The notes under the pieces are model-generated. The model was not told the DNA's origin and did not search any database. It worked only from the letters and a program-made list of their open reading frames with translations. A program made the position numbers and the translations under genes. Below, one piece after another: positions 1,125 to 54,263 of a stretch of DNA of 64,000 nucleotides (position 1 is its first letter; every line of letters begins with the position of its first letter). Origin of the DNA: Leucobacter coleopterorum. Lineage in GTDB: Bacteria; Actinomycetota; Actinomycetes; Actinomycetales; Microbacteriaceae. The DNA lies in the NCBI RefSeq assembly GCF_011382985.1, contig NZ_CP049933.1, positions 2,480,001-2,544,000 of the forward strand, in the 5' to 3' direction.

Positions 1125-2119
1125 TCAGGCGGTGTAGCTCTCCGACCGCCCGGGGCGCGGAGTCAAGATGATGCGCGGGAGCGCCAAAAGATCTCGCTCG
1201 TCTCGCTCCACCTCTAACGGTTCGGTCCGTTCGATACCGCCTTCAAGACACAGTCCCGAGAAGTGGTCGTTCAGACTCGTCATTTCTGCGTCGCTCAGTT
1301 CCCTGTTCAATCGGAGAATCAGGCGGTCCCCCACCCAACGCAGCGAGTCATAGTTGCGCCAGAACCCCGTGATCTCAGCAATGGCATCTTCAACCGAGTC
1401 GGTAATCAGCACACGATCAAGATCGTCGATGGAGATCATGCCCGTTCCGGCCATCTCTTTCATCGCGAACTGAGCAAACCCTCGCCAGAAACTGCCCCCG
1501 GGGCGATCAAGCAACACGATCGGCACTGGGATCATTTTACCGGTCTGCTGCAGCGTGAGCAGTTCAAGCGTTTCGTCAAGTGTGCCAAAGCCGCCGGGCA
1601 GGCATACAAACCCACTCGACTCTTTCACCAGCATGAGCTTGCGAGTGAAGAAGTATTTCATCGAGACGAGGCGGTCCTTCTCAGCAACCGTCGCGTTGGG
1701 CTGCTCCTCGAACGGCAGACGAATCGATACCCCCAACGAGTGTTCCGATCCTGCCCCCGTCGCGGCAGCCTCCATAATTCCGGGCCCTGCACCGGTCACC
1801 ACAAACCACCCCTGATCGGCAAGGCCCGAGCGGTGGCCTCAGCACTCAGCCAGAGCGGATCATTGGCATGCGTGCGAGCCGATCCAAAAATCGACACTTT
1901 GGGCACCCCGTGGTGCGGCGCAAACAGTCGGAACGCCGCACGCATCTCTTCAAGCGCAGCGGCCGTGATCTTGATGTCGAGCCGGCCAGCCTCATCTTGG
2001 CCGAGGCCGATTCCCGCCGCCAGAATGCGTCGGATCAGGCCGCGCTGATCCGTAATTCCGGCCTCGGTCATGAGCGAGGTGATGGCCTCGTTCAGAGCTT
2101 CAGTCTGGGTCTCGTTCAT
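1125..2119 (-). CDS. LOG/lysine-decarboxylase-family Rossmann protein (frame broken once)
   Basis: A two-part reading frame encodes one LOG-family protein of 331 residues after repair. The N-terminal part (about 105 residues) is an actinobacterial extension. The Rossmann core then shows SIFGSART, GAGPGIMEAA and the signature PGGFGTLDE. Members of this family cleave nucleotide monophosphates to release the free base, as in cytokinin activation; the in vivo substrate here is unknown. The frame is lost near 1820, in the segment reading ATARALADQGWFVVTGAG after one base is restored. The start at 2119 is preferred over the in-frame GTG at 2131 because GGAG sits 6 bases upstream of that ATG. It lies downstream of gcvH in the same direction, probably as a separate unit. 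Confidence 0.8.
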
Positions 2120-2210
2120 CAGCTTCTCCACGTTCCCAGTCTAGGCAAACGGGCTTGCTGAGCACGGCAAACACACCACAGCGTTCACCATGAGCGTCCA
2201 GCCGATCGCG

Positions 2211-2590
2211 TCAGACGACCTCGGCGTCGTTGGCTGCCGCGTACTCCTCAGGTGTCTGCAGCGGGCCGAGCTCGGTGACGGCGACCTTGAACAGCCAGCC
2301 CGTACCGTAGGGCTCCGCGTTGATCATCGCGGGATCGGCCACGGCCGCGTCGTTCACCTCGATGACTTCGCCCGTCGCGGGCGAATACAGTTCTGACGTC
2401 GACTTGGTCGACTCAATCTCACCGCAGACTTCGCCGGCCGTGACCGTGGAGCCAACCTCGGGCAGCTCGACGTACACAACCTCACCGAGCGCGTCGACCG
2501 CGACCTCTGAGACCCCACGACCGCCGGGCTCTCGTCGTTGATCCACTCGTGCTCGACCGAGTACTTTAGTCCGCTGCGCACTGTGCTCAT
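2211..2590 (-). CDS. gcvH: Glycine cleavage system H protein (frame broken once)
   Basis: This is the lipoyl carrier of the glycine cleavage complex, which shuttles the aminomethyl group between the P, T and L proteins. After restoring one G in the G-run near 2517 the protein is 126 residues, the normal H-protein length. It reads EHEWIN, ALGEVVYVELPEVG, and the lipoylation segment ESTKS with the acceptor Lys63. Unrepaired, the ATG frame loses similarity after residue 26 (PAVVG). It is the third gene of a gcvP-gcvT-gcvH operon, 62 bases after gcvT. Confidence 0.92.
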
Positions 2591-2652
2591 GTGTTGCTCT
2601 TTTCTGTGTTGTTTGAGTTGTCGAAGAAGGGGTGAGGATCGGTGTGGCGTGG

Positions 2653-3784
2653 CTACACCGACCGCGTGTAGAACGGCAGTTTGACGACTTCGAAAGGCTG
2701 TGGTTTACCCCGCAGATCAACCTCGAGTGCGGTGCCGGGCTCCGCGAACTCGGGCCGTACGTAGGCGAGCGCGATCGGGTACTCAAGGGTGGGGCTCAGT
2801 AGGCCACTTGTGATCTCACCAACGACTTCGTCGCCCAAGACAACCGCATACCCAGCCCGGCCAGCGCGCCGACCGGATCCGCGCAGCCCCACGAGCGCCC
2901 GTTCGGGTCTCGCTTCTCGCATAGCCTCCAGCGCCGCGCGCCCCACAAAAGGCTCCGGTTTTTTGAACGAGACGACCGCCCCAAGCCCTGCCTCAAACGG
3001 ATTCGTCGTGAGGCTGAGTTCGTTGCCGTACAGTGGCATGCCCGCCTCAAGCCGCAGGGAATCCCGCGTCGCAAGTCCCGCCGGGATCAGTCCGAATGAC
3101 TCGCCCGCCGAGAGCAGCGCCCGCCACAGCTCAACGGCTCGCTCGTTCGGTACATACAGTTCAAAGCCGTCCTCTCCCGTGTAGCCGGTGCGCGCGAGCA
3201 GCACATCGATGCCTGCCACGCGCGCCTCTTCGGCAGAGTAATACTTCATGTCGAGGGAGGCCCGCTGTTCGGGTGCCATGATTCCCTGCAGGATCGCCAC
3301 TGTCTTTGGCCCCTGCACCGCAATCAGGCTGGTCTCGGTAGAGACATCACGCACTTGCACATCAAAGCCGCTTGCCCGCCCCGCAGCGCCACCACCACCG
3401 TCTCAACGTTGCCTGCGTTCGGCACAACCAGAAACTTTTCGTCAGCGAGCCGATAGCAGATGAGATCGTCAATGATGCCGCCGCCCTCATCACAGAGCAA
3501 CGAATACTTGGCCCGACCCACGGCAACCGCGGCAAAGTTGCTTACAAGCGCGGTGTTCATAAACGCGACAGCGTCGGGCCCTCAACCCACACCTCGCCCA
3601 TATGCGAAAGGTCAAACAGTCCGGCGACCTCGCGCACAGCGCGGTGCTCCGCAAGTTCCGAGCCGTAACGCAGCGGCATGTCCCAGCCACCAAAGTCGGT
3701 GAAGTGCGCGTCGAGCTTTTGGTGTTCGGCGTGCAGCGGAGTTTGTTTCAGCGTGGTCGTTGTCGCCGTAGTCGCCTCAGTCAT
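2653..3784 (-). CDS. gcvT: Aminomethyltransferase, glycine cleavage T protein (two frame breaks)
   Basis: T protein transfers the H-protein-bound methylene group to tetrahydrofolate, releasing ammonia. Three frames join into one 377-residue protein when one C is restored near 3579 and one G near 3383. Recognisable segments are [55 protein letters not shown] and the C-terminal barrel ending in LPFYTRSV. The ATG at 3784 overlaps the gcvP stop as ATGA, showing tight translational coupling. Length and segment order match the normal single-gene T protein, so the breaks are most likely sequence errors. Confidence 0.93.
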
Positions 3785-6634
3785 GATGCGGTCCCTTCGA
3801 AGGCCTCGGGTGGCGGACACGAACACACGAGGTTGCGGTCGCCGTGTGCGTTGTCGATCCTGCCCACCGGAGGAAAATACTTGTCGACACGCAGCCGCGC
3901 TACCGGGTACGCGGCCTGCTCACGCGAGTAGGCCCGATCCCAGTCGTCTGCGGTGACCACCCGGCGGTATGCGGCGCGTTCCGCAACGGCGAGGCCTCAA
4001 GCGTGAAGTCGCCCGCAATCACCTGGTCAATCTCGGCGCGGATCGTGCGCATCGCCTCAATAAACCGCTCGATCTCACCGAGGTCCTCCGATTCCGTTGG
4101 CTCAACCATCAGTGTGCCCGGCACGGGGAAGGCGAGTGTTGGGGCGTGGAAGCCGAAGTCGATCAGGCGCTTCGCCACGTCTTCCGCGGTCACCCCCGAC
4201 TTCGCGGTGAGCTCACGCAGATCAAGGATGCACTCGTGGGCAACAAGTCCGTGATTTCCGGTGAACAGCACGGGGAACACGTCTGTGAGTCGGGAGGCGA
4301 TGTAGTTCGCGTTCAGCAGTGCGGTCTTGGTCGCCTTCGTCAGCCCAGCGCCGCCCATCATCGCGATGTACGCGTACGAAATCGGCAGCACCCCGCCGAC
4401 CCGAAGAGCGTCGCCACAACCGGCGCTCCGCCGACCTGGTGGATCGCTGTCGGATCGCTCGGCAAAAACGGCAGCAAATGCTCTGCTACACCGATCGGAC
4501 CAACCCCGGCCCACCACCACCGTGCGGAATCGCAAATGTCTTGTGTAGATTGAGGTGCGACACGTCGCCACCGAAGCGTCGGGGCTGTGCGAGACCTACC
4601 AGAGCGTTCATGTTTGCACCATCGATGTAGACCTGTCCACCAGCCGCGTGCACCAGTTCACACACGTCACGCACGTCGGTGTCGTAGACACCATAGGTCG
4701 ACGGGTAGGTGATCATGATCGCGGCGAGCGCGTCACGATTCGCCTTGATCTTTTCGGTGAGATCTGCGAGGTCGATCGTGCCGGTCTCGGTGTTCTTCAC
4801 CACAACAACCCGCATGCCGGCGAGCACCGCCGAGGCGGCGTTGGTGCCGTGGGCAGACGCCGGGATCAGGCAGACATCACGATCTTTGTCGCCGTTCGCC
4901 AGGTGATACCCGCGAATCGCGTGCAGCCCGGCGTACTCCCCCTGAGCGCCCGAGTTTGGTTGCACCGAAACCCCCGCGTAGCCAGTGATCTCAACGAGCC
5001 AACTCTCCAGTTCAGCGATCAGGTCCCGCCAGCCTGCGCTCTGCTCGGCGGGTACGTAGGGGTGGACGCCCGCGAACTCAGGCCACGAGATCGACTCCAT
5101 CTCGGCTGCAGAGTTGAGCTTCATGGTGCACGATCCAAGCGGGATCATCGTGCGGTCCAGCGCGAGATCGCGGTCCGCGAGTCGGCGCAGATACCGCATC
5201 ATCTGCGTTTCTGAGCGGATCGAGTGGAATACCGGGTGGGTCAGGTAGTTGCTCGTGCGGGTGAGCGCGGCGTCGAAGCCGTAGTCGCCGGGTGTCGCGC
5301 GCTCGGTTACCGTCACCCCGAATGCCTCAGCAACGGCCTCGATGTGAGCCGCTGTGGTGGTCTCGTCGGTCGAGATGCCAACGGTGTCTGCGTCAACGCG
5401 GCGCAGGTTGATCCCTGCCTCTGCCGCTCGCGCGATCACGGCGTCGGCTTCGCCCGGCACGGCGGCAAACACTGTGTCGAAGAACGAACCAGAAGCCAGC
5501 GGGATCCCGGCCGTGCTCAGCGCTGCCGCCAGCGTGCGGGCGTGCGCGTGGGTGCGCTCGGCGATCCCCTTCAGCCCGCCCGCACCGTGGTACACCGCGT
5601 ACATCGACGCCGTGATCGCGAGCAGCGCCTGCGCGGTGCAGATGTTGCTCGTGGCGCGCTCACGGCGAATGTGCTGCTCGCGGGTCTGCAGTGCAAGTCG
5701 GTACGCGGGGCACCGGTGGAGTCCTTCGAGACACCGACAAGTCGCCCGGGCAGTGAGCGCTCAAGCCCTCGCGAATCGCGAGGTACGCCGCGTGCGGCCC
5801 ACCAAAAAAGAGCGGCACCCCAAAGCGCTGCGTGTTGCCGACGGCGACATCGGCCCCCTGCTCGCCGGGTGGGGTGATGAGCGTGAGCGCGAGCAGATCC
5901 GCAATCACCGTGGCCATCGCGCCGCGATCCCTCGCCTCCGCGATCACGGCCGCGTGATCCACCACCGCACCATCGTTGCCGGGCTGCTGCAGCACGATAC
6001 CGCTGATGTCTCCGTCGGGCAGTCCCTGGGTGAGGTCCGCGACCTCAACCTCGATGCCGAGCGCTTCCGCGCGGCCCCGCACCACCGCGATGGTCTGCGG
6101 AAAGATGTTTGCGTCAAGCACCGTCTTCGCCGTCGCGGGCGCCTTTTTGTTCGCGCGTCGCATCAGCAGCACGGCCTCAGCGGTCGCGGAGGATTCGTCG
6201 AGCATCGACGCGTTTGCGATGGTCAACCCGGTGAGATCCGTGACCATCGTCTGGAAGTTCAGCAGAGCTTCGAGCCGGCCCTGCGAAATCTCGGGCTGGT
6301 AGGGCGTGTAGGCCGTGTACCAGGCGGGGCTCTCGAGCACGTTGCGGCGGATCACGGGCGGTGTGTGGGTGCCGTAGAAGCCCTGGCCGATCATCTGGGT
6401 GTGCGTCGTGTTGCGATCCGCAAAGCCGCGCAGCCTTGCGAGGATCTGCTCCTCGCTCAGGCCGTCAGCCAGTTGCAGCGGTTCGTCGCGCCTGATGGAG
6501 TGTGGCACGGCGGCGTCCGTCAGTTCATCGAGGCTGCCGTAGCCGAGGCGCTCCAGCATGGTCGTCGTGTCGTCGAGGCTCGTCACTCCGATGTGCCGAT
6601 CGGCAAAGGGGCGATTGGTGGGGGTAATGGTCAC
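3781..6634 (-). CDS. gcvP: Glycine dehydrogenase (decarboxylating), P protein (five frame breaks)
   Basis: The PLP-dependent P protein decarboxylates glycine and loads the aminomethyl group onto GcvH. The fused single-chain form is present: N-terminal half with [34 protein letters not shown], and C-terminal half with the PLP-lysine segment [15 protein letters not shown] (Lys near residue 697). The frame is lost near 5762, 5712, 4508, 4398 and 3960. Each break is repaired by one base, giving 952 residues, the standard length. The start is a GTG with GGAG 7 bases upstream. The stop overlaps gcvT as ATGA. A tandem glycine riboswitch occupies the leader, so glycine controls the operon. Confidence 0.93.
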
Positions 6635-6677
6635 GGGATCTCCAGGAGTAGCGTCGCGCGGGCGCGACTAATGGTGA

Positions 6678-6885
6678 TCCTCCCCACTCTGTTGGGAACC
6701 TGAGAGATTCGAAAGCTTCGAGTGTCTTGCGGAGCTTCCTTGCACCGTCGGTGAGTCTGCGACGCGAGCGACGCACACTACTTTCCAGAGTTGCCTTGCC
6801 ATAGCGGTACGGATGCCTGAGAGATTCCCGGGGAGGTATTGCTCCTTCGGCGCCGGGTGCAAGCCCCGGACTCTCCCGCCATAGC
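6678..6885 (-). promoter_or_regulatory. Tandem glycine riboswitch upstream of gcvPTH
   Basis: Read on the minus strand, two copies of the glycine aptamer pattern follow one another. The first begins GCGGGAGAGTCC, contains GCGCCGAAGGAGCAA and closes with AATCTCTCAGGCA and GGCAACTCTGGA. The second contains GACGGTGCAAGGAAGCTCC and closes with AATCTCTCAGGTTCC and AACAGAG. These are the conserved core elements of class glycine (gcvT) RNAs. The element ends about 45 bases before the gcvP start. In the known family, cooperative glycine binding turns on glycine cleavage genes; whether control here is transcriptional or translational is not clear from the sequence. Confidence 0.93.
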
Positions 6886-6962
6886 TCAGCGGCCTATATT
6901 CACGAGTGCTGCCAGCCTATACCAGCGTGGCCCTTGGTGAAGCCCCGGTGCCGCCCTTAACA

Positions 6963-7015
6963 CGGCCTCGATGCGGCTTCGCCGCTGCCTCGATACGGCC
7001 TCGACACGGCCTCGA
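6963..7015. repeat. Short direct repeats CGGCCTCGA in the gcvP/ispG intergenic region
   Basis: The 9-mer CGGCCTCGA occurs at 6963-6971, 6996-7004 and 7007-7015, with related copies (TGCCTCGATACGG) between. It lies in the 344-base stretch 6886-7229 that has no gene. That stretch otherwise holds a palindrome at 7054-7110 and a heptad tandem repeat at 7162-7224. No function is evident. Confidence 0.5.
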
Positions 7016-7053
7016 CGCACCGGGAGACCCGCAAACCCCACGCAATCCCTGCA

Positions 7054-7110
7054 CGAGAGCTCACTTTTACATGTTTTTTACTTCTAGAAACATGTAAAAG
7101 TGAGCTCTCG
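7054..7110. terminator. Perfect 23-bp palindrome downstream of ispG (family A hairpin, copy 1)
   Basis: Arms 7054-7076 and 7088-7110 are exact reverse complements (CGAGAGCTCACTTTTACATG...) around an 11-base loop. It lies 120 bases beyond the ispG stop. A diverged copy with the same core (AGCTCA-TTTT-CATGTTT) is at 43253-43307, also at a gene end. Placement suggests transcript-end hairpins of one repeat family. Confidence 0.7.
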
Positions 7111-7161
7111 GATGGGTCGTGTGGCGCAGCAGCGCGCGGCTCGGGGCGCCGAGTCTCGAGG

Positions 7162-7224
7162 CTCAGAACTCAGAACTCAGAACTCAAGACTCAAGACTCA
7201 AGACTCAAGACTCAAGACTCAAGA
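7162..7224. repeat. Heptad tandem repeat, 9 units
   Basis: Three exact copies of CTCAGAA (7162-7182) are followed by six exact copies of CTCAAGA (7183-7224). The array stops just before the ispG stop codon region (gene ends at 7230). There are no spacers, so it is not a CRISPR. The two-block structure suggests expansion by slippage of two variant units. Confidence 0.9.
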
Positions 7225-7229
7225 CAAAC

Positions 7230-8377
7230 CTACGGCGTGAACACGTCAGGCGCGCCCGACTCCGACGCGGGCATCTCGGCGGCGATGCGGTTCGCCTCTT
7301 CGATCAGCGTCGCGACGATCTCGCTCTCGGGCACGGTCTTAATGACCTCTCCCTTCACAAAGATCTGGCCTTTGCCGTTGCCCGACGCAACCCCCAGATC
7401 GGCCTCGCGGGCCTCGCCGGGACCGTTCACAACACAGCCCATCACGGCAACGCGCAGCGGCACGCTCATGCCCTCGAGACCCTTCGTGACCTCTTCGGCG
7501 AGAGTGTACACATCGACCTGCGCACGCCCGCACGAGGGGCACGACACGATCTCAAGCTTGCGCTCGCGCAGGTTCAGCGACTGCAGAATCTGCAGACCAA
7601 CCTTCACCTCTTCGACGGGGGTGCCGAGAGCGACACACGAATCGTGTCGCCGATGCCCTCGGAGAGCAGAATGCCAAACGCGGTTGCACTCTTGATCGTG
7701 CCCTGGAACGCCGGGCCCGCCTCAGTCACACCGAGGTGCAGCGGCCAGTCGCCACGCTCTGCCAGCTGGCGGTACGCCTTGACCATCACAATCGGGTCGT
7801 TGTGCTTCACCGAAATCTTGAAGTCGTGGAAGTCGTGTTCTTCGAACAACGACGCCTCCCACACGGCACTCTCAACGAGCGCTTCGGGGGTTGCCTTGCC
7901 GTACTTTTGCAGCAGCCGAGGGTCGAGGGATCCAGCGTTCACGCCGATCCTGATCGAAGTGCCCGCGGCCTTGGCCCGCTTGGCGATCTCGGCAATCTGG
8001 TCGTCAAACTTGCGAATGTTGCCGGGGTTCACGCGAACCGCCGCGCAGCCCGCGTCGATCGCCGCGAAGACGTAGGCCGGCTGGAAGTGGATGTCGGCGA
8101 TGACCGGAATCTGGCTCTTCATCGCGATGATGGGCAACGCCTCGGCGTCGTCGCGCGACGGACACGCCACACGCACGATGTCGCACCCCGACGCCGTAAG
8201 CTCTGCGATTTGCTGCAGGGTCGCGTTGATATCGGTCGTCGGAGTGGTGGTCATCGACTGCACCGACACCGGGGCGTTGCCACCGACCATAACTGAACCG
8301 ACTTTGATCTCACGCGACTTGCGCCGCGGCGCAAGAACTTCGGGGACCTTCGGCATTCCTAAATTGACTGCTGCCAC
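7230..8377 (-). CDS. ispG: 4-hydroxy-3-methylbut-2-enyl diphosphate synthase, IspG (frame broken once)
   Basis: IspG converts methylerythritol cyclodiphosphate to HMBPP in the non-mevalonate isoprenoid pathway, using a 4Fe-4S cluster. The protein shows [45 protein letters not shown] and [10 protein letters not shown] in the barrel. The C-terminal domain carries the cluster cysteines in SCPSCGR and [10 protein letters not shown]. The frame is lost near 7615 in a run of five C; adding one C gives [10 protein letters not shown] and a 382-residue protein of normal length. The gene is essential in organisms using only this pathway, which argues that the break is a sequence error. dxr and the site-2 protease lie upstream in the same direction. 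Confidence 0.94.
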
Positions 8378-9179: not shown

Positions 9180-9364
9180 GTCCCCGATGTTACTCGGCCC
9201 CTTCGTGCTTCGCCGACTGCCAGTTCCCTCCCACGAACGCTAGTCTCAGCATGTCAGCCGGTGCTCACACACCCACCGGTTCAATCAGCTCGTTTCTATC
9301 CGGCTGAGTTCTCAGCACCGGCTGATGCGTTGGCACTCACACCACGCCAGCTATCCTGGTCAAC

Positions 9365-10664
9365 ATGGTGGATCAGGATCAGCCCGGCGCACACAACACT
9401 CCCGCGGAGGGCGCGCCGGATCCTCACCCCCAAACGAAACCCTCCAAAATGTCGCACCGCACCAAGATCCTCATCGGCGCGGGCGCAGCGCTTGTGCTAA
9501 TCCTGGCCGCAGGAGGCACCGCTTTCGCCCTGCTCAACCCGTCGGCCCCGAGCCAGCCAAAACCGCCGCACCAAAAACTCCAAAACCGACCGCGACCCCG
9601 ACCCCGACACCCACCACATCCGCAGCCCCCAAATCCGTCAAGGTCATCGCGATGGGTGACATGCTGCCCCACGACTCGGTGAATGCCAACGCGCTACAAC
9701 CAGACGGCAGCTACAACTACGCCCCGTTTTTCGACGGCATCAAATCTGAGCTCGACGCGGCAGATCTCACCTTCTGCAACCTCGAGGTGCCAACAGCGGG
9801 CGTCGATTTTGGCATCAGCGGCTACCCCACGTTCAACGCACCAACAGAGTTCTCCCGCGATCTGCACGGCGCCGCGGGCTGCGACCTGGTCAACACGGCC
9901 ACAAACCACACCGCCGACAAAGGCACGGCAGGCATCGCGGCCACCAGAAATACCTGGGACACCCTGACGCCCTCCTACGTGTCTGGCTCAAACCGCAGCG
10001 CGGAGGAGCAGCAAATTGTCCCGGTCGTTGAAAAAGACGGCATCAGGATCGCGCTCGTTTCGTTCGCCGAGTACTCGAACGCGCCGATCGACGGTATCTC
10101 GCTCAACCTTATGAGTAACGACGCACTGGTAGAGCAGCTCATAGCGAAGGCCCGCGAATCAGCCGACGTGGTCGTTGTGTCCGCGCACTGGGGTACCGAG
10201 GATTCGCACGAGGTCAACGCCCAGCAGCGCGACTTTGCGCAGAAGGTCGCCAATCTTGGCGCCGACGTGATCATCGGCACCGGACCGCACGTGCTGCAGC
10301 CAACAAGCTGGTTGAACCGCGCAGACGGCGGCAAAACACTTGTCTGGTACTCGATTGGCAACATGCTGAACACACAGCTCACACTCGATCAGCGCACCGG
10401 GGTGATCGCTGGGTTTGAGCTCACCAAAGATGGTGACACTGTTCAGGTGACGAACCCAACCGCCGTGCTCACCTACATGCACTACGACTGGACGCCAGCC
10501 CAAGAGGCGGCAAACGATCTGCTCGCGCGCCACAATCTGAGCCTCACACCGCTGGCTGCGGCCGACGACTTACTCGCCCGCACGACCTTCGGGTTTCAGT
10601 GGCTCAGCAGGTCGAAGCATCGTCCACGATCCTCGGCCCTGATGTCACCGTGCTGCCCCAATAG
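9365..10664 (+). CDS. CapA-family metallophosphatase-like protein, membrane-anchored (two frame breaks)
   Basis: After restoring one C near 9548 and one G near 10588 this is a 433-residue protein. Residues 1-35 are hydrophilic, followed by one membrane anchor (ILIGAGAALVLILAAGG) and a Pro/Thr/Lys linker. The rest is a CapA/PGA-synthesis domain: VIAMGDMLPHDSV, DLTFCNLEVP, NTATNHTADKG, VVVSAHWGTED, GADVIIGTGPHVLQP, VWYSIGNML. CapA proteins are linked to poly-gamma-glutamate export in Bacillus, but most actinobacterial members have no known substrate. It points opposite to the VanY-like gene (8388-9179) and converges on the site-2 protease gene. The repaired C-terminus ends VTVLPQ. Confidence 0.82.
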
Positions 10665-10688
10665 CCGCATTGGAGAAAGCAGCCGAAT

Positions 10689-12152
10689 CTACCCGAAGAA
10701 CGACACCGGCTTCACCAAGTCTGCATACACAAGCAGCAGCGTCATAAATCCTCCGACCACAACCACCGCGAAGGTGATCGGCACCATCTTGGCTGTGTCG
10801 ATGGGACCAGGGTCGGGCTTGCGGCGCAACCGCGCGATGCCGCGCTTGAGCCCCTCGTAGAGCGCACCAGCGATGTGACCACCGTCGAGCGGCATCAGTG
10901 GAATCAGGTTGAACACAAACAGTGCAACGTTCAGCGATCCCAGCAGACTAAACATGACCTGCGCGCGTGCGGCAACAGGCGCATCATCAACGCTCACAAT
11001 CTCGCCAGCAAGTCGCCCAACACCCACCACACTCATGGGCCCGTTAGGATCACGCGCCTCACTGCCAAATGCCGCGTTCCAAATGTCGACCATGCGCTCA
11101 GGCAGGTGCAGCACCATGCCCGCGACTCGAGAAACGTTGTCACCAACAAATGGCGGTACGTCGGCGACGGACTGCGGCACCATCTCAGAGGCAGGAGTCG
11201 CCCCAATCATGCCAACGGTTTCGTAGACGGGTTTGCCGGTGGCGTCGACCTTGGCTTGACCGCCGGCATCAGTGGCCTGACGCTCGTTCGCGACAGGAGT
11301 GAGTTCAAGCTCCATCTGAAAGGCTTCGCCCTGGTCGTTCTTGCGCTCGATCTTCACCGCGAGGTGTTTGCCAGGCGACTCACTCACAAGCGTGCGGAAC
11401 GCGTCCCAGTTCTCTACAGGTGCACCATCCACCGAAATCAGTTTGTCCCCGGGCAGCAGACCGGCCTCGGCCGCGGGTGCTGCGGGATCACCGCTGTCAC
11501 ACTTGGTGGCACTGCTCGATGCGGGCACGAGGCACTCGTTAATTGAGCCGAGCGTGGTGCTGTTTTGAGGCACCCCAAAGCCAACGAGCACGATGCCGAA
11601 GAACACAAACGCAAGGATCAGGTTCATGACCGGTCCACCGAGCATCACAACAATCTTCTTCCACACCGGAAGCCGATAGAACGTGCGGTGATCCTCGCCC
11701 TCCGCAATGGTCTCCGCGCTTGCCTCGCGCGCGTCGTCGACCATGCCAGCGAGTCCGTGACGCAGTTCGGTCGGCTCGACGTCACCGATGCGCTCGAGTT
11801 CAGACACGATGTCGGCGTGCTCGACCGACCCGCGAGTACGGGGTGACCCTTCCTGCACTACGGAGTTTAAGAACCCCGTAGTCGAGGCGCGCGCGGCCTC
11901 TCCGGGCTTTTTGGGCGGGTACATGCCGGTCATGGCAACGTAACCGCCGAGCGGGATCAGCTTGACCCCGTACTCGGTTTCGCCCTTGCGCTTAGACCAC
12001 AGGGTCTTGCCAAAACCAACCATGTACTGCGTGACCTTCACTCCGAAGAGTTTGGCCGGCACTAGGTGTCCGATCTCGTGCAGGGCGATCGAAACGGCGA
12101 GTCCGATCACAATGATCAGGATCCCGAACACATAGAGCAGCACTTCAATCAC
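10689..12152 (-). CDS. RseP/Rip1-type site-2 membrane metalloprotease
   Basis: This 487-residue intramembrane zinc protease carries the HEIGH catalytic motif at residues 25-29 in its first membrane segment and the second metal motif region PLDGGHIAGAL near the C-terminal membrane segments. A PDZ domain lies between (GLLPGDKLISVDGAPVENWDAF). A charged insertion of about 70 residues before the second membrane span (VVMLGGPVMNLIL) is usual in actinobacterial members. The family cleaves anti-sigma factors and other membrane proteins in regulated proteolysis. It is 40 bases downstream of dxr in the same direction, the conserved actinobacterial neighbour arrangement. The frame is intact. Confidence 0.92.
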   Translation of the reverse strand: MIEVLLYVFGILIIVIGLAVSIALHEIGHLVPAKLFGVKVTQYMVGFGKTLWSKRKGETEYGVKLIPLGGYVAMTGMYPPKKPGEAARASTTGFLNSVVQEGSPRTRGSVEHADIVSELERIGDVEPTELRHGLAGMVDDAREASAETIAEGEDHRTFYRLPVWKKIVVMLGGPVMNLILAFVFFGIVLVGFGVPQNSTTLGSINECLVPASSSATKCDSGDPAAPAAEAGLLPGDKLISVDGAPVENWDAFRTLVSESPGKHLAVKIERKNDQGEAFQMELELTPVANERQATDAGGQAKVDATGKPVYETVGMIGATPASEMVPQSVADVPPFVGDNVSRVAGMVLHLPERMVDIWNAAFGSEARDPNGPMSVVGVGRLAGEIVSVDDAPVAARAQVMFSLLGSLNVALFVFNLIPLMPLDGGHIAGALYEGLKRGIARLRRKPDPGPIDTAKMVPITFAVVVVGGFMTLLLVYADLVKPVSFFG

Positions 12153-22066: not shown

Positions 22067-23292
22067 TCACCGCCCAGGAGTTCTTGCCCCGCGAGCGGCA
22101 AGAACCTCCGCCCTCAAAACCTCTACGATCCTTTCGATCGCGTGGTTACTCAGAGGGCTCGGAAGCGTGAATCGGATTGCGGTCTGGGCAAGAGTCGGTT
22201 CCATGCCGAGCGCAAGCAGCACAGGCGAGGGCTCGTCCTTCCCAGCTGCACACGCAGAGCCAGAAGAAACTGCAAAACCCGCTACGTCGAGCGCAACGAG
22301 CATTGATTCTCCGCTCACACCAGGCACAACAAACGAGGCGTGGCCTGGCAACCGTTCCTCAGGATCTCCTGTCAGTCGGGCCCCAGGCACATCGGCGAGC
22401 ACTCTGGCGAGCAACTCATGCCGGCTAGCAGCGAGGGCAAGGGATCGGGTACCGACATCTTTGTTTCCAGCTCTTACGGCGGCCGCAAAGCCGACTATGC
22501 CGACAACATTCTCGGTTCCCGAGCGAGCACCACCTTCTTGCCCGCCACCGTGCAGAATCGGCTCCAGCCGAAGGTGCCTCCTCACGAGCAGGGCGCCGAC
22601 CCCTTGAGGCCCACCGAATTTGTGAGAAGCAACCGTCATGGCATCGACGGCGGGCCCCGGCCATGCGTTAGCAACCTGGCTAAAAGACATGGGCAGGGAC
22701 GCGGCTGCTTGCACGGCATCCGTGTGTACTGGAACACCGAGGCCTTGAGCGTGCTCGGCAATCTCCTGAACAGCTTGGACCGTACCGATTTCCGCATTGG
22801 CGAGACCAATGGAGAGCAGAGACGTATCTGGGCGCAGAGCCGCAGCAACATCCCCGGGTCAACTCGCCCAACTGCGTCTACCGGCAGCAACGAAAGCTCG
22901 AAGCCAAACACCCGCTCCAGGTAGCGACAGCTCTCCAGCACGGAAGGATGCTCGATTGCTGTCGTGACGATGTGCCGTCCTCTTGGATTCGCAAGCGTAA
23001 GCCCGATCACAGCAAGGTTGTTTGCCTCTGTTCCGCCCGATGTGAAGATGACCTCATCTGCTCTTGCACCAAGGGCATGTGCGATTTCAGAACGAGCGCG
23101 GTCAACGATCTGGCGAGCACGGAAACCCGACGAGTGCACGCTTGAGGCATTGACGGCGTCATCAAACGCGTCCACCATGGCCGCGCGCGCTTCAGAACGC
23201 AGTGGCGCAGTCGCCGCAGTGTCAAGGTAGCCTGACTCGACCACATCTTGCTGACCTGCGCTCCCTGCAGAGTGCGCTAGTTGTCCTCTCAT
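22067..23292 (-). CDS. NifS/IscS-type cysteine desulfurase of the NAD operon (frame broken once)
   Basis: After adding one G near 22856 this is a 408-residue class V aminotransferase. It shows YLDTAATAPLR, FTSGGTEANNLAVIG, AIEHPSV, ANAEIGTVQ, the PLP lysine in VASHKFGGPQG, and the active-site cysteine loop SSGSACAAGKDEPS. These are group I (NifS/IscS) features, unlike the SufS at 18949. It is the last gene of nrtR-nadA-nadB-nadC, 15 bases after nadC, with GGAGG before its ATG. That context suggests it supplies sulfur for the NadA 4Fe-4S cluster, as the nad-linked NifS of Bacillus does (established); for this organism it is inference. Confidence 0.88.
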
Positions 23293-23307: not shown

Positions 23308-24154
23308 TCAGCCAGCATCAAGACCGAGATCGAGGGCACGCGCGCCGTGCGTCAGCTGACCAACAGAAATCACGTCAACCCCCGTCGCAGCAATTGCAGC
23401 AACCGTTTCAAGTGTCACGCCACCGCTTGCCTCGGCAATGGCGCGACCCGCGATCATGCCCACACCGACCTCAAGTTCAGAAAGAGAGAAGTTATCGAGC
23501 AATACACCGGTGACGTTTGCCGCGAGAACCGGTTCGAGTTGGTCGAGGCGGTCCACCTCAACGATGATTGCCGTCGTGTGGCCCGCCCGCTCACGAATTC
23601 CCTGCAGCGCAGCGGTAGTCGTCTCGGCATCAATGGCCCGAGCGCCACCAGGTGGTTGTCCTTGACCATGATCGCGTCCGAGAGACCGAAGCGGTGATTC
23701 GTCCCACCACCGGCACGCACCGCATGCTTTTCAAGAGCGCGCAGGCCGGGTGTCGTCTTCCGAGTGTCTGCGATATGAGCATGTGTGCCAGACACGGCCT
23801 CAACAAACTGGGCCGTCAGGGTGGCGATACCACTCATACGCTGTGAGAAGTTGAGGGCCACCCGCTCCCCCGTGAGCACACCGCGCGCGGGTCCTGCCAC
23901 CCTGGCGAGCACGTCACCCGCCGCGAACACCGCACCCTCGGCGGCGAGCGCCGTCACCCGGGTACGCGGGTCAACTTGCCGAAACGACTCCTCAACCAAA
24001 GCGCCGCCCGCGAACACCCCGGGCTCCCGAGCAACCAAACGTGTGTCGATCAGGGCGTCCTCGGGAATCGCGAGCTCCGTAGTCAGATCCCCCAGGGGGC
24101 GTCTTCTGCGAGCGCGACGCTCACGATGGATTCAATTGCGTGACGCGTCAGCAC
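23308..24154 (-). CDS. nadC: Quinolinate (nicotinate-nucleotide) phosphoribosyltransferase (two frame breaks)
   Basis: NadC joins quinolinate and PRPP to give nicotinate mononucleotide and CO2 in de novo NAD synthesis. Two restored G residues (near 24090 and 23640) join the frames into 282 residues. Segments seen: SVALAEDAPWGDLTTEL, VALNFSQRMSGIATLT, IADTRKTTPGLRALEKHAVRAGGGTNHRFGLSD split over the middle, MVKDNHL and LLDNFSLSEL. The GTG start at 24154 has GAGGAG upstream and overlaps the nadB stop (GTGCTGA). Without the repairs the N-terminal 38 residues and the C-terminal 110 residues would be lost. Confidence 0.92.
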
Positions 24155-31159: not shown

Positions 31160-32585
31160 ATGGCACAAGCGCCCGCCATTCAGCCAGCAGGCAAGACCAA
31201 AAAGCGTCGAGGCATCGACAAATCGCATTACCTCTACATTGCCGTGATTATCGCGGTCGTCGGCGGTGCGATTGTCGGGCTGATGATTCCAGAGTTCGCA
31301 AAATCACTCAAACCGCTCGGCGACGCGTTTGTGGCGCTCATCAAGATGATGATCGCCCCCGTCATTTTCTGCACCATCGCGCTCGGCGTGGGTTCCGTCG
31401 CGAAGGCCGCCACCATCGGCAAGGTCGGCGGTCTTGCGCTTGGCTACTTTGTGGTCATGTCGACCTTTGCGCTCGGGATCGGCCTGTTCGTTGGCAACCT
31501 GATTCATCCGGGCGATGGCCTCGATCTCAGCAATATGCACTACGACGCGCCAGCCACGGCGGGCAGCGCCGAGGGTGGCACGCAGTCGTTCCTCATGGGA
31601 ATCATTCCCACATCGCTGCTCTCCTCGCTCACGGCCGGCAACATTCTGCAGACCCTGTTTGTGGCGCTGCTCACCGGCTTTGCCCTGCAAAAAATGGGCG
31701 ACGCTGGCAAGCCGATCCTCACCGCCATCGGTCAGGTTCAGGTTCTTGTGTTCCGTCTGCTCACCATGATCATGTGGGTGGCTCCGGTTGGGGCGTTTGG
31801 GGCGATCGCGGCCGTGGTTGGTTCGACTGGCCTCCAAGCTATCGTGAGCATGGCGACTCTGATGATCGCGTTCTACATCACCTGCATCCTGTTTATTGTG
31901 GTCGTGCTCGGGTCCCTGCTGTGGACGGTCGCCCGCGTCAACATCTTTCTTCTCATGAATTACCTCGCCCGCGAGTACCTGCTCATCTTCTCGACCTCGT
32001 CGTCTGAGCCCGCCCTGCCCCGCCTCATCGCGAAGATGGAACATCTCGGTGTCTCCAAGCCCGTCGTTGGTGTCACCGTACCGACCGGGTACTCATTCAA
32101 CCTCGACGGCACCGCGATCTACTTGACGATGGCCGCGCTGTTTGTGGCGACCGCCATGGGCAAACCGCTGGAACTCGGCGAGCAGATCTCGCTGCTCATT
32201 TTTATGATCATCGCGTCAAAGGGCGCGGCTGGTGTGACGGGGCTGGCATCGCGACCCTCGCCGGGGCCTGCAGTCGCACCGCCCCGACCTGGTCGACGGT
32301 GTTGGTCTGATCGTCGGCATTGACCGCTTCATGTCTGAGGCCCGCGCGCTCACAAACTTCACCGGCAACGCAGTCGCGACCGTGCTGATCGGCACCTGGA
32401 CGAAGAGCGTCGAAAAACAGCAACTCGTTGAGGTGCTCGCAGGCCGCGCCCCCTTCGACGAGTCTATGATGACAGCTCTCGACCACGGCGCCCCGACCCC
32501 GATTGTCGAGGCTGAGCGCATGGTCGCCGACCCCCCGGCTCCCGCCCAGCCGTCCAAGATGCAGGTATCTGAGCCGGCTGGCTAG
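31160..32585 (+). CDS. Dicarboxylate:cation symporter, DctA/GltP family (two frame breaks)
   Basis: This transporter belongs to the SLC1-type dicarboxylate/amino acid:cation symporters. Two restored G residues (near 32237 and 32264) give 475 residues. Features: eight membrane helices plus hairpin loops, SSSEPALPRL in hairpin 1, PTGYSFNLDGTAIYLT in helix 7, SKGAAGVTGAGIATLAGG (hairpin 2) and GIDRFMSEARALTNFTGNAVA in helix 8. Helix 8 carries the substrate-binding Asp and Arg. The ATG at 31160 has AAAGGAG upstream. It is divergent from the CitA/DcuS-type kinase, so C4-dicarboxylates or citrate are likely substrates (inference). A long palindrome follows. Confidence 0.9.
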
Positions 32586-32720: not shown

Positions 32721-34834
<2,114 letters not shown>

Positions 34835-37699: not shown

Positions 37700-38255
37700 A
37701 CCAACACCTCGCGGGCGACTCGCAGCGCTGACTCGACCTTCCGGGCGAGGTCGTGTCGGCCCGCGCCGAGGCTCGACCAGCGCCACACGGCGCCGAGCAG
37801 TGCTGCCGCGTATCCGGCTGCGACGATCCTCGCCCGCGCGGCATCCGCACCATCACGCTCTAGGCGATTCGCCACAGCGTCGGCGATTCGCAGCTGTCGC
37901 AGCGCCTGCCCCGTACGCAGTTCAACTTCGACCCCCATGTTTCGGGCGTCGACAATAGCGAGGGCGAGTGCGTCGGGGCGGTGCCGTCGGCGAACGCGTC
38001 GAGAGCCTCGTCAAGAGTGAGCTCAGGATCCTCGACCCGCTGCACAAGCGCGTCGATCTGCTCGTCGAGCACAAACCACAGTATTGCCGACTTGCCCTCA
38101 AAGTAGTTGAAGAAGCTCGAGCGACTCACTCCCGCGCGCCGGGCAATCTCGGTGACGGAGGTGGCCTCGTAGCCCTGCTCAAGAAATAGCTCGCACGCGG
38201 CATCCGTGAGCACTTCACGGGAGGAGGCGTGCGGGCGCCCGCGCGGATTCGACAT
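37696..38255 (-). CDS. TetR-family transcriptional regulator (frame broken once)
   Basis: After adding one C near 37976 this is a 186-residue TetR-family protein. The N-terminal helix-turn-helix is clear (TSVTEIARRAGVSRSSFFNYFEGKSAIL, split over helices 2-4). The C-terminal effector domain is alpha-helical and continues as GTAPDALALAIVDARNMGVE. The start at 38255 (MSNPRGRPHAS) is preferred because homology begins there. It is convergent with an MFS gene and divergent from the dipeptide-type ABC operon at 38335, with an 80-base gap that should hold the operator. Either neighbour may be the target. Confidence 0.87.
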
Positions 38256-40001: not shown

Positions 40002-40945
40002 GTGAGGGCGGTCCTCGCGCGATTGGGCTCGGCTGTGCTGGTGGTGTGGATCACCGCCACGGTCGTGTTCGTTGCGCTGCGGGCGACGGGTGATCCGCTT
40101 GAGGCGATCCTCGGTGGCCCCGGATCACAAGCGGGGCCCGAGACCGTCGCACGTGCGACACAAAACTACGGCCTGGATCAGCCTGTTGTTGTGCAATACC
40201 TCGCGCAGCTGTGGCGGATCGCCACCCTGCAGTTCGGCGACTCGTATGCGCGCAAGCAGCCCGTCTCTGAGTTGCTCGCCGAGAACGTGCCACCGACCGT
40301 GCTGCTCGCCACCCTCGCGCTCCTGCTCGCCTGGGCGCTCGCGGTCGTGGGGTTGTTGATCGCAGCGACGGCTAGAGGTCGCTTCGGTGGGCTTGTGCGC
40401 TCGGCGCTTTCGGGAGTCGAAACCGTGGCGAGTGTGGTGCCGCAGTTCTTTTTGGGGGCGGTGCTCATTCTCGTGTTTGCAAACGGGCTGGGGTGGCTAC
40501 CGGCCACCAGTTCGGGATCGAGCCCGGCCGGTCTTGTGCTGCCGGTTGTGACACTGGCGGTGCCTATCGCTGGGTACCTCGCACACGTACTCCACGGATC
40601 TCTTGCCGAGGCCGACGCAGCCCCGTTTGCGGTGACCGCACGCTCGCGCGGGTCTTCCGAAACGCGGGTGTTCTTTCGGCACACTCTGCGCCACGCAGCG
40701 CTGCCCGGGGTGGCGCTCTCGGGTGGGCCTACGGTTCGCTGCTGAGCGGTGCCGTTGTGGTTGAGGCACTGTTTGCGCGGCCCGGCCTCGGGCGGCTGCT
40801 GCTCGAAGCTGCCGCCGTGCGCGATGTGCCCGTGGCAATCGGGGTGGTCACCGTGATCGCGCTGCTCTATGTTGTGGTGATGCTGGTGTCGTCGTTGCTT
40901 GAGCACGTGATTGACCCGCGACTCGCGAAGGCGGTGGTGGCGTGA
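40002..40945 (+). CDS. DppB-type ABC permease (operon 1; frame broken once)
   Basis: After adding one G near 40730 this is a 314-residue six-helix permease. The coupling-loop region reads FAVTARSRGSSETRVFFRHTLRHAALPGVALSGWAYGSLLSGAVVVE across the break. The RARGLS-like segment is ARSRGSSE. It ends LEHVIDPRLA, the usual DppB tail (DPR). The GTG start lies 5 bases after the binding-protein stop, and the stop overlaps the next permease (GTGA). Confidence 0.9.
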
Positions 40946-41790
40946 GTGCGGCAACAATCCTGCGACTGCAGCAGAAGACCAGCCGGTCGTTCAACGGTCT
41001 CGGCTGGCCAAGCTACGTCGCGCTCGCGATCCTCGCGATCACGGCTGTCGCCGTGTGCGCCCCGCAGATCCTCGCCCCGGGCAACCCGCTCGCTATCAAC
41101 CCCGCCGATGCCCTGCAATCACCGTCACCAGTTCACCTCTTCGGCACCGACGAGTCAGGCCGCGACCTCTATACCCGCGTCATTCACGGCGCCGCCGCAT
41201 CACTCGGCATAGGCCTCGCTGCCACGGCTATCGGAGTTGGTCTCGGCGCGATCCTGGGCTTCACCGCGGGTCTCGGCCCGAAGCTAGTCGATTCCGCCCT
41301 AGGCAGGGTCTTTGAGGTGCTCTTCGCACTCCCCACACTAGTGATGGCACTGCTGTTCATCACAATCATCGGCGGGGGCCCCACGGCATCCATCCTTGCG
41401 ATTGGCCTAGCCACTATCCCGGGCTACGCCCGCATGCTGCGCTCAAGGGTTCGTGGCATCGCACAGAGCGGCTACGTGGAGTGGGCGCGGCTCGACGGTG
41501 TGAGTCCCCTGCGAGTGTTCACCCGTCACATCGCCCCGAACTCACTGTGGCCGCTCGTGTCAGCGGCGACGCTCGGGGTCGGACAGGCCATCGTGTGGGT
41601 ATCGGCACTCGGGTTCCTCGGGCTTGGAGCGCTGCCGCCCTCACCCGAGTGGGGTGCGATGCTCAATTCTGGCCGCACCTACATCGCAACGGCGTGGTGG
41701 ATGACGGTGTTCCCGGGGCTCGCGATTGTCGTCACTGCCGCGGCGCTCACGGCACTGGGTCGTCGCCTTGCAAAGTTGGGGATCGCATGA
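40942..41790 (+). CDS. DppC-type ABC permease (operon 1)
   Basis: This 282-residue permease has an N-terminal helix (YVALAILAITAVAV), the external loop HLFGTDESGRDLYTRVIHGA that defines DppC-type subunits, and the coupling helix YVEWARLDGVSPLRVFTRHIAPN. It pairs with the DppB-type permease to form the membrane channel. The GTG start overlaps the upstream stop. Its stop overlaps the ATPase start (ATGA). The frame is intact. Confidence 0.92.
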   Translation: MSAATILRLQQKTSRSFNGLGWPSYVALAILAITAVAVCAPQILAPGNPLAINPADALQSPSPVHLFGTDESGRDLYTRVIHGAAASLGIGLAATAIGVGLGAILGFTAGLGPKLVDSALGRVFEVLFALPTLVMALLFITIIGGGPTASILAIGLATIPGYARMLRSRVRGIAQSGYVEWARLDGVSPLRVFTRHIAPNSLWPLVSAATLGVGQAIVWVSALGFLGLGALPPSPEWGAMLNSGRTYIATAWWMTVFPGLAIVVTAAALTALGRRLAKLGIA

Positions 41791-43254
41791 GCGTGTTAGA
41801 GCTGCAAAGCCTCGGAGTGCAGCATCACAATGATCAAATTCTCGACGGCATCAGTCTCACTGTCAACGCGGGCGAGTGCGTCGCTGTTGTCGGTGAATCG
41901 GGAGCGGGCAAGTCTGTTCTCACACGCACCCTGCTGGGTCTTGTGCAGGCCGAGCCAAAGTGGCGCGTGGACGCAAAGCAGTTCATCATCACGGGGCACA
42001 ATATGCGTGAGGCCAGTCAGCGAGACTGGCGTGCGCTTCGAGGGGCAGAGATTGGGCTAATTTTGCAGGATGCGCTGCAATCGCTTGATCCGCTGCGCAC
42101 CATTGAGGCCGAGGTGGGCGAGGCCCTTGAGGTTCGGGATCAGCGTGCGTTCGGTCAGGGTCGCCGCCTGCGGCGAGCGCGGGTGCTCGAAGCACTCAAA
42201 CGAGCGGGACTACCGAAGGCCGAGCAGCACCTGCGGCAGCGATCCGGCGAACTCTCCGGCGGCATGCGGCAGCGCGCGCTCATAGCGTCGGCCATTGTGT
42301 GCAACCCCCGGCTTCTTATTGCCGACGAACCCACCACCGCACTCGATCCGACAACCGCTGCTCGTGTGCTTGAGCTCTTCTCCTCCATCAAAGCGAGCGG
42401 CACCGCCTTGCTACTCATCAGTCACGATCTGCAGAGTGTTGCGCAGATCGCCGACCGCATCGTAGTGCTGGATCGGGGCAAGATTGTCGAGTCTGGCAAC
42501 CGCGACCAGATCCTGAACCACCCGCAACACCCCGTTACCCAACGGCTGCTCGCCGCGGCACCGTCCGGGGCCAAGCCCGGCGGGGCCGTTGTACCGGGCA
42601 AACCACTCATCACAGTGAGCGACGGCACTCGCAAGTTTGCGTTGGGCAAGGGCCACACGTTCGCGCTCTCTAGAGTCAGTTTCGAGTTGCGTCGCGGTGA
42701 GGCCGTGGGCGTGCTCGGTGAGTCCGGTGCAGGAAAGACCACACTCGCGCGGGTGCTTGTGGGGCGGAGCGACTCGATTCAGGCGAGGTTGAACGCACTG
42801 CGACACGGGTCCGGCTGATTCCGCAAGATCCACTGGCAACCTTTGATCCCAGGTGGCGGGTCGAGCGCATTCTCGCGACCTCTCTGCGACTGACGGGCAC
42901 TTCGGTGGCTGAGCTACTGCAGATGGTTGACCTTGATCCGGCTTTGGCCCACCGCCGCCCCTGACTCTCTCGGGAGGCCAGCGGCAGCGGGTTGCCATCG
43001 CGCGGGCGCTCGCCGCCGACCCCGACGTACTGGTGTGCGACGAACCCGTGTCGGCGCTCGATGTCTCGACGCAGGCTGGTGTTCTGAATTTGCTGCGGCG
43101 GCTGCAACACGAGCGTGACCTCACCATCGTGTTTGTCTCCCACGATCTCGCAGCGCTGCGCACGGTCTCTGATCGAGTACTCGTGATGCAAGATGGCCAA
43201 ATCGTTGAGCAGGGGCCGACGGAAGAGGTGTTTGCCCACCTGCAGCATGCTTGA
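41787..43254 (+). CDS. Fused DppD-DppF double ABC ATPase (operon 1; two frame breaks)
   Basis: One polypeptide of 489 residues after repair carries both ATPase domains. Domain 1: Walker A GESGAGKS, signature LSGGMRQRA, Walker [13 protein letters not shown]. Domain 2: Walker [13 protein letters not shown]-loop [11 protein letters not shown], signature [10 protein letters not shown], Walker [13 protein letters not shown], and switch VSHDLAALR. The frame is lost near 42765 and 42960, both in G or C runs; repair gives [10 protein letters not shown] and RRPLTLSGG. Domain 2 is compact for this family. It drives the operon 1 importer. A hairpin begins at its stop codon. Confidence 0.89.
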
Positions 43255-48209: not shown

Positions 48210-48278
48210 GCTCAGATCCTACGCCCGGACCTCGCACCCGCAACACATCAAAGCGATTCGGGATCAGACCCTCAACGA

Positions 48279-50183: not shown

Positions 50184-50326
50184 ATAAGTTGAGTCCTAAC
50201 GAGACGAACGGAGCGCCGACGCGGCGGGTTGCCGGGCGCGCTGCGGGATCATCCCGCGAAGGCACCAAAGAGGCCGACGCACCAGTTTAGCGGATTTCAC
50301 CTGAACCTCCACCATGAACTTCGCAT

Positions 50327-51526: not shown

Positions 51527-53311
51527 CTAGCGGGACGGCAAGCCCGTTGGAGCCTGGCCCGCGAAAGGCCCTTCGCCGTCGGTTCGCTTCCGAAGGTGAG
51601 GCACGTGGTCACCAGGCTCCATACCCAGTTCAATGTTCGCCCCGGGAATCGCGGCGAGCAGGTTCTTCGTGTACTCCTGCTGCGGGTTCTCGAAGACCTC
51701 TTCAACGGTCGCCTGCTCGACGATCCGTCCCTGCTGCATCACGCACACGCGGTCCGCAATCAACCGCACCACCGCAAGGTCGTGTGTAATGAAGAGGTAC
51801 GTCAACCCGAGTTCACGCTGCAGTTCGGCGAGCAGATCCAGAATCTGTGCCTGCACCAGCACGTCAAGCGCCGACACGGCCTCATCGAGGATCAGCACGT
51901 CAGGCTTCAGCGCGAGTCCACGAGCGACAGCCACGCGCTGGCGTTGGCCACCCGAGAGTTCGTTCGGGTAACGCGTAGCCATGTCACGCGGCAGCGACAC
52001 CTGGTCAAGCAGCTCATACATGCGCTCACGACGGCTGGCGCGATCGCCGACCTTGTGAATGTTGAGCGGCTCCATGATGGTGTTGCCGATGTTGGTCAGC
52101 GGATCCAGCGAACCGTACGGGTCTTGGAACACGGGCTGTAGCGTGCGACGCAGATCGAAGAGCCGCTTGCCAGAGATACCCGCCATTTCTTGGCCAGCGA
52201 TCTTGATTGACCCGCTGGATGAAGTCTCGAGCTGCAGGAGCATCTTCGCGATCGTGGATTTGCCCGATCCCGACTCACCAACAAGCGCCATCGTTTCGCC
52301 GCGCTTGACCGTGAAGGTGGCGTCGGAGACAGCGTGGAACTCTTCAGACCCAAAGTTTCCCTTACGAATCTTGTAGACCTTGCCGAGGCCGTTGACCTCG
52401 ATCATGGGTTCACCTTGGGCGACATTCTTTTGATCTCCGCCCGCGAGAGTGGAAACATCAAACGAATCAGTCGGAGCGGGAGGCAGCTCGGCGTCGGAGC
52501 CGATGCGGCGCGAAGCGAGGCTCGGCGCAGCAGCAACGAGTCGCTTCGTGTACGGGTGCTGCGGGTGCTGCAGAATCTCGCGGCTCGGGCCCGATTCCAC
52601 GATGTTGCCCTTGTACATCACGATCAGCTTCTCAGCGCGCTCAGCGGCAAGGCCGAGATCGTGAGTAATGAACACCACGGCAGTGCCGCGCTCACTCGTC
52701 ATCTTGCCAAGGTGATCGAGCACCACTCGCTGCACGGTCACGTCGAGCGCCGAAGTCGGTTCGTCTGCGATGAGCAGCTGCGGGTCGGCGGCGAGGCCGA
52801 TGCCAATAAGCGCGCGCTGCTTCATGCCACCAGAGAACTGGTGCGGAAACTGCTTCATGCGCTTTTCGGCATCTTGCAGACCCGCCTGCTGGAGCACCTC
52901 AACGGCACGCTCCTTGACCTCTTTACGTCCATTCGCAAGGCCGTTGGCACGGATGGCCTCTTCAACCTGGAAGCCGATAGACCACACCGGGTTGAGGTTT
53001 GACATCGGATCCTGCGGCACAAGACCAATTTCGCGGCCGCGAATGGTTTCCATGTCACGCCGGTGGATACCAACAAGCTCGCGCCCGTTCCAGTTCACGG
53101 ATCCCTCGGTGATGCGACCCGTACCTGGCAGCAGGTTGATGACGGCGTGCATTGTTGTGGACTTGCCGGACCCTGATTCCCCCACAATCGCGACGGTCTC
53201 GCCGGGGTACACGTCAAAGTTGACCCCGTGCAGCACCTCGTTCATCGTCTTGCCGACTTTAAACGCAACCTTCAGGTCGCGCACGCTGAGTAGTGGCTGT
53301 TGCTCGCTCAT
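51527..53311 (-). CDS. Fused DppD-DppF double ABC ATPase (operon 2)
   Basis: This 594-residue protein contains two ATPases. Domain 1: Walker A GESGSGKSTTM, signature FSGGMKQRAL, Walker [13 protein letters not shown]. Domain 2: Walker A GESGSGKSTIA, Q-loop PVFQDPYGSLDP, signature [14 protein letters not shown], Walker B VLILDEAVSALD. Here the usual DEPVSALD is DEAVSALD, a Pro-to-Ala change next to the catalytic Glu. The frame is intact. It follows the DppC-type permease with an ATGA overlap and closes operon 2. Confidence 0.93.
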   Translation of the reverse strand: MSEQQPLLSVRDLKVAFKVGKTMNEVLHGVNFDVYPGETVAIVGESGSGKSTTMHAVINLLPGTGRITEGSVNWNGRELVGIHRRDMETIRGREIGLVPQDPMSNLNPVWSIGFQVEEAIRANGLANGRKEVKERAVEVLQQAGLQDAEKRMKQFPHQFSGGMKQRALIGIGLAADPQLLIADEPTSALDVTVQRVVLDHLGKMTSERGTAVVFITHDLGLAAERAEKLIVMYKGNIVESGPSREILQHPQHPYTKRLVAAAPSLASRRIGSDAELPPAPTDSFDVSTLAGGDQKNVAQGEPMIEVNGLGKVYKIRKGNFGSEEFHAVSDATFTVKRGETMALVGESGSGKSTIAKMLLQLETSSSGSIKIAGQEMAGISGKRLFDLRRTLQPVFQDPYGSLDPLTNIGNTIMEPLNIHKVGDRASRRERMYELLDQVSLPRDMATRYPNELSGGQRQRVAVARGLALKPDVLILDEAVSALDVLVQAQILDLLAELQRELGLTYLFITHDLAVVRLIADRVCVMQQGRIVEQATVEEVFENPQQEYTKNLLAAIPGANIELGMEPGDHVPHLRKRTDGEGPFAGQAPTGLPSR

Positions 53312-54263
53312 CGCTGTGCCCTCGCCTTCGGATCGAGTGCGTCACGCAGTACCTCACCCAGCAGGATGAAGGCGAGTACGGTCAGGGTGAGCGCGATGGA
53401 TGGGAAAATCAGGTTCTCCGGTGCGGTGCGCAGGTCCCCTGGGCCTGAGCAATATCGTTGCCCCAGCTAATGAACTCCGGCGTTGGCAGGCCGACACCCA
53501 AGAAGGAGAGCACTGCCTCAGCCACGATCGAGGCGGCCAGCGCGAGCGTTGATACGACGATCATTGGCGCCATCGAATTCGGGAGTACGTGGCGCCACAG
53601 TGTCCGCCACGGACCAAGGCCCTGCGCGGTAGAGGCGGTGACGAAGTCTGCCGGACGAATACGCAGCACTTCAGCGCGCAGCACGCGCGCGCTTGAGGCC
53701 CAGGCGAAGATACCAATGGCAAGCGAGATCACCCAGATGTTTCGGTAATCCCTCAGGACGCTCATCACGATCACTGCCGCGAGGATGTAGGGGATCGAGA
53801 AGAAGATGTCGCCGACACGCGACAGCACCGCGTCGACCCACTTGCCAAAAAAGCCCGCGATGGCACCCATCACGGTTCCGATCACAAAAATGAGCAGTGT
53901 AGAGATGAGACCAACGGACACCGAGGTGGAGGTGCCGTACACGATGCGGGCGTAAATGTCACAGCCCTGCTTGGTGAAGCCGAGCGGGTGTCCGGCTTCA
54001 GGACCGGCGTTACTCAGCGAGAGATCGCACTGCCTCGGGTCGGCCTGCGTAAACAGACTCGGAAAGACTGCTGCGGTGATGACAAAGAGCAGCAGGGTGA
54101 CTGAGATGTAGAACATCGGTCGCTTGCGAATATCGCGCCACGCATCTATCCAAAGGCCGGAGCGACGCTCGTCGAGCTTCGGAACATCTACCGCAGCGGT
54201 AAACGTGTTCTCGTCGAACGGCGCAACGAAGTGCTCGTTTCTAGGATTCGTGTTCTCAGGCAT
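53308..54263 (-). CDS. DppC-type ABC permease (operon 2; frame broken once)
   Basis: After adding one G near 53437 this is a 318-residue permease. It starts with a long charged N-terminus, then a membrane helix (FYISVTLLLFVITAAVF) and the DppC external loop GHPLGFTKQGCDIYARIVYGT. It has the coupling segment DFVTASTAQGLGPWRTLWRHVLPN, and the repaired tail DLRTAPENLIFPS ... DALDPKARAQ. The ATG at 54263 has AAGGA upstream. It overlaps the DppB-type gene by 8 bases and the ATPase start by 4. Confidence 0.91.

Follow-up and report, generated by a model that had tools for sequence, protein, structure and literature searches.

Frame breaks at G/C runs across a Leucobacter genome, very probably the product of homopolymer undercalling in its assembly

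Why should so many otherwise ordinary genes lose their reading frame by a single base? The question is raised by a 64 kb stretch of DNA (the window) within the single 3,215,551-base contig of a Leucobacter genome, whose completeness estimate is 89.59% despite its one-contig assembly. A preliminary description had listed 24 one-base breaks in 15 genes of the window and read them as homopolymer shortening in sequencing. This reading is supported by one-base losses at G/C runs, by their dependence on run length, by their presence in ribosomal RNA (rRNA) and in essential single-copy genes, by an unchanged ratio of nonsynonymous to synonymous substitution rates (dN/dS), and by the different set of genes broken in the closest relative compared. 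The breaks are very probably consensus sequencing errors, caused by undercalling of G/C homopolymers in an under-polished, probably nanopore, assembly. The pattern is genome-wide and extends beyond the window.

Proteins of relatives were aligned to the window DNA with a frameshift-aware protein-to-DNA aligner written for the analysis. A site was counted if a one-base-deletion event lay within 10 nucleotides (nt) of the listed coordinate with at least one relative's protein, and such an event was found at all 24 sites. Genomes are designated by G numbers, G000 being the window's own and the others those of relatives. For the GcvP piece the best named matches were from Leucobacter (L. luti, 79% identity; L. 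tardus, 76%), and the closest relative compared, G009, is 91% identical across this piece and shares synteny with a large part of the window.

The depth of support differed among sites (Table 1). Those in gcvH, gcvT and gcvP were each covered by 12-24 sense-strand references, a partly redundant set in which one sequence can stand under two ids (e.g. L007/L014), and the event was lacking in one reference at 3383 and in one at 3960. Four references covered the ispG site and 11 the dppC-like site. For ten sites (22856, 24090, 23640, 25976, 32237, 32264, 37976, 40730, 42765 and 42960) G009 was the only sense-strand reference, so that breaks common to both genomes would stay hidden there. The weakest were the capA-like sites, with a deletion in one of five references at 9548 and three of five at 10588, the remaining references showing none; against the frame as it stands, relatives' matches stop near both positions. 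A 25th break, absent from the original list, was found near 1156, toward the 3' end of the LOG gene (5/5 references). The aligned share of the relative's protein was 89-100% for 14 of the 15 genes as they stand. Twenty window breaks could be localised, 19 of them with a run of at least three bases in or beside the interval. The two sites that the preliminary description placed outside runs (1820 and 5762) also lie at GGG.

To cover the genome more widely, eight regions including the window were sampled, comprising 293 aligned genes and 301,377 aligned nt; nine further stretches that had no reference are excluded from the break counts. References were filtered on codon-position GC, replacing an initial pass with unfiltered open frames, because long antisense frames had produced spurious stops. 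The eight regions yielded 94 one-base deletions versus 11 one-base insertions, together with two two-base deletions and two two-base insertions. At least two of the 94 deletions fall in alignments to antisense-looking frames (1022024-1022868 and 1028043-1029953) and may be spurious. A break was carried by 76 of the 293 genes (26%). Each kb of aligned coding sequence holds about 0.31 breaks, which, if typical, would amount to roughly a thousand across the whole genome.

The sequence context was analysed for the 91 deletions whose position could be narrowed to a short interval (three were unplaceable and are excluded). Of these, 88 were at G/C, versus a background of 78%, and a called run of four was the longest run at 44% of breaks versus 6.4% of matched random intervals. 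Shortening of G/C runs rose steeply with true length, from 5/6126 at length 3 to 29/1487 at length 4, 40/381 at length 5 and 8/18 at length 6, while the corresponding figures for A/T runs were 2/2861 at length 3, 1/539 at length 4 and 0/167 at lengths 5-6. At lengths 5-6 the comparison of G/C (48/399) with A/T (0/167) gave Fisher p = 2.5e-8. On the genome's plus strand the affected runs comprised 34 of G and 44 of C. A word-enrichment scan around 78 breaks gave no convincing word beyond the run itself; the best short word, CCGG, was seen 22 times versus 11.3 expected, with an uncorrected p of 0.001 among many words. No clear signal emerged from the reference-free run-length spectrum, in which 6-base G/C runs per 100 kb numbered 5.4 here, 12.2 in G009 and 3.7-22.5 in nine other relatives represented by smaller samples.

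The same signature was observed outside protein-coding sequence. The two 16S copies of the genome (L187, G000:C1:913912-915432, and L186) differ at three positions, all of them G/C-run lengths, with zero substitutions, and the two 23S copies differ at two positions, again both G/C-run lengths and with zero substitutions. One of the 16S gaps lies inside a motif that is whole in 28/28 loci of 15 relatives and in the genome's other copy; the short form was confined to the single affected copy, where three overlapping loci contain it. Among the comparable 23S pairs of relatives, the copies were identical in G003, G026 and one G004 pair and differed by one substitution in G006, and the G009 copies were one G-run gap apart.

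Breaks were also present in genes with essential functions. The rpoC gene is split in this genome (near 1004012) and forms a single open frame in 17 of 19 relatives, that is, in all with a match, the two others being incomplete genomes. Further breaks are carried by rplB (L2), rplV (L22), secY (SecY) and trmD (TrmD), which like rpoC are essential genes, and by a murG-like gene whose family score lies below the cut-off. Class-I transfer RNA synthetase matches showed no recognisable split in this genome, so some large essential genes escape. Median dN/dS was 0.083 for 58 broken genes versus 0.067 for 154 intact ones (p = 0.69; genes with fewer than 150 aligned codons, references other than G009 and undefined dS values excluded), giving no detectable sign of relaxed selection in the broken genes, although very recent decay would escape this test.

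The same procedure applied to relatives gave no events in G013 (49.9 kb), G019 (27.4 kb) and G003 (11.0 kb). G009 was intermediate: 133 kb yielded 23 one-base deletions together with 13 insertion calls, some of these calls possibly being deletions in the G000 reference pieces. The artefact is thus present in G009 too, in a milder form and in different genes. None of the eight genes broken in G009 within the syntenic region is broken in the window, judged with the same non-G009 references. As a side observation, all 23 deletions in G009, from 125 kb of aligned coding sequence, are at G/C and 16 of the 23 at called runs of 4-5 (G009:C1, loci L094-L097, L121-L140 and L167-L169).

Table 1. Window genes with one-base breaks (each name was verified with either the G009 orthologue or pieces of the window itself).
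Feature	Coordinates	Strand	Breaks near	Remark
LOG / TIGR00730-family gene	1102..2131	-	1824, 1156	
gcvH	2217..2620	-	2517	
gcvT	2656..3943	-	3582, 3379	
gcvP	3784..6882	-	5763, 5710, 4502, 4395, 3961	At its upstream end the alignment covers an extended part of the relative's open frame
ispG	7233..8377	-	7614	
Open frame with middle of capA-like (PGA_cap) gene	9325..10860	+	9546, 10595	
Cysteine desulfurase-like gene	22091..23265	-	22853	Family scores below curated cut-offs
nadC	23314..24154	-	24090, 23635	
nadA	25821..27133	-	25971	
Dicarboxylate/amino acid symporter-like gene	31160..32579	+	32244, 32264	DctA-type scores below cut-offs
OYE / dienoyl-CoA reductase-like gene	32793..34831	+	33016	Scores below cut-offs
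tetR-family gene	37702..38255	-	37972	
ABC transporter permease	40005..40942	+	40720	
ABC transporter ATPase	41372..43236	+	42760, 42963	
dppC-like permease	53311..54302	-	53437	

Within the window, one-base insertions were absent from the filtered pass, which gave 22 deletions, a single two-base event and several stop events in antisense or upstream alignments. The two-base event, at 6716 in the upstream extension of gcvP, passes the filter, and the stop events at 6668, 31180 and 50495 are each situated upstream within their alignments. A relative's frame of 879 residues, the source of a cluster of stops near 53.4-54.0 kb, was set aside. A possible 26th one-base deletion was seen near 45757, ten residues from the end of the G009 alignment and too close to it to confirm.

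Several observations weigh against undercalling. In the eight-region pass, the flank filter leaves 16 internal-stop events, which were not individually cleared, and the 11 one-base insertion calls are unpolarised, so that some may be deletions in G009. The breaks cluster slightly more than run content predicts (p = 0.0075, with many small expected counts), with no breaks versus 3.6 expected near 1.68 Mb (1680-1700 kb) and 11 versus 6.0 expected in the window's first 20 kb (2480-2500 kb); the clumping may stem from uneven read depth. The controls are imperfect, as G001 gave two events in 39.8 kb, G006 one in 18.3 kb, G018 one in 20.7 kb, G004 three in 35.1 kb and G011 three in 35.2 kb. In addition, the second G004 23S pair differs by seven substitutions and two gaps, one of them in a G run. 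The clumping and the unpolarised insertions leave the verdict unchanged.

Three accounts in which the short runs are real were considered and rejected. Mass pseudogenisation, with true recent frameshifts in a decaying lineage, would fit the broken quarter of aligned genes, and genome decay on a comparable scale exists in host-restricted bacteria. Here it is hardly credible: the genes for RpoC, L2, L22, SecY and TrmD and the rRNA are broken too, dN/dS is unchanged, and the losses are single bases at G/C runs without a matching A/T excess, whereas decay also yields nonsense changes and larger deletions. Equally implausible is a mutator clone that truly lost single bases at G/C runs. Replication slippage also predicts length-dependent loss, as observed, but in such a clone the 16S motif and essential genes would be destroyed, none of the 167 A/T runs of 5-6 is shortened, and insertions are few. 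In the third account, real short runs are corrected by ribosomal or transcriptional slippage, a rescue that has been suggested for certain genes of endosymbionts and organelles, and the breaks do lie at runs. The called runs are mostly 3-5 bases, however, which is short for slippage; in G009 and other relatives a single frame spans each of these genes; and slippage leaves unexplained two rRNA copies that differ only in run lengths. Shift-site conservation of the kind expected of programmed frameshifting was not found, the relatives' proteins reading through in one frame. Frameshift rescue through recoding has been described in other systems (PMC5009743 and PMC8254509), yet its operation here is hardly credible.

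Any real cause would need to shorten only G/C runs, by one base, as set by their length, in rRNA and rpoC alike and without harm, which basecalling error does naturally. The feature is almost certainly an ordinary technical error and not biology. A base modification common to this lineage (the window genome and G009), making short G/C runs read one base short and so triggering the undercalling, has a slim chance of being involved and gained little support from the word-enrichment scan. The same artefact might alternatively come from another machine, an unlikely though not negligible variant that falls inside the favoured explanation. Older PacBio, 454 and Ion Torrent data are the candidates, 454 and Ion Torrent also being prone to homopolymer indels. 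The single 3.2 Mb contig suggests long reads, without proving them. Homopolymer indels are the main error of PacBio circular consensus sequencing reads as well (PMC12007338), and the strong preference for G/C over A/T, while not proof, fits the nanopore profile published in PMC8486125.

Under homopolymer undercalling, the assembly would most likely be one of nanopore long reads, polished hardly or not at all with accurate reads, and G/C runs of four or more would sometimes be called one base short. A short call within a gene would shift its reading frame and one within rRNA would leave a one-base gap, and the real DNA is presumably intact at the break sites. Taken at face value, the record leads to about a quarter of aligned genes (76/293) being called broken and to an understated genome completeness (89.59%), and gene-loss studies in Leucobacter would be misled. 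Identification or copy-variant analyses using this record's 16S copies would be slightly wrong, and other findings in the window should be set aside where they depend on broken, short or missing genes.

These features closely resemble those of known sequencing artefacts. According to a study of homopolymer errors in nanopore reads ('Sequencing DNA with nanopores: Troubles and biases', PMC8486125), C and G homopolymers longer than two are read worse than A and T, runs are called too short, with more deletions the longer they are, and high-GC species fare worst. The preference for G/C and the length trend are the same in this genome, with the difference that the published bias was measured on reads, whereas here a consensus was analysed and the machine is presumed to be nanopore. 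In unpolished long-read bacterial assemblies, one-base homopolymer indels lead to frameshifted gene calls and inflated pseudogene counts (PMC9262707 and PMC12007338). In contrast to those assemblies as described there, the losses in this genome are almost confined to G/C runs, and the cause is deduced from the consensus where those studies had reads. In the example given in PMC12007338, pseudogenes made up 23.3% before and 5.6% after correction, the uncorrected value being near the 26% of genes broken in this genome.

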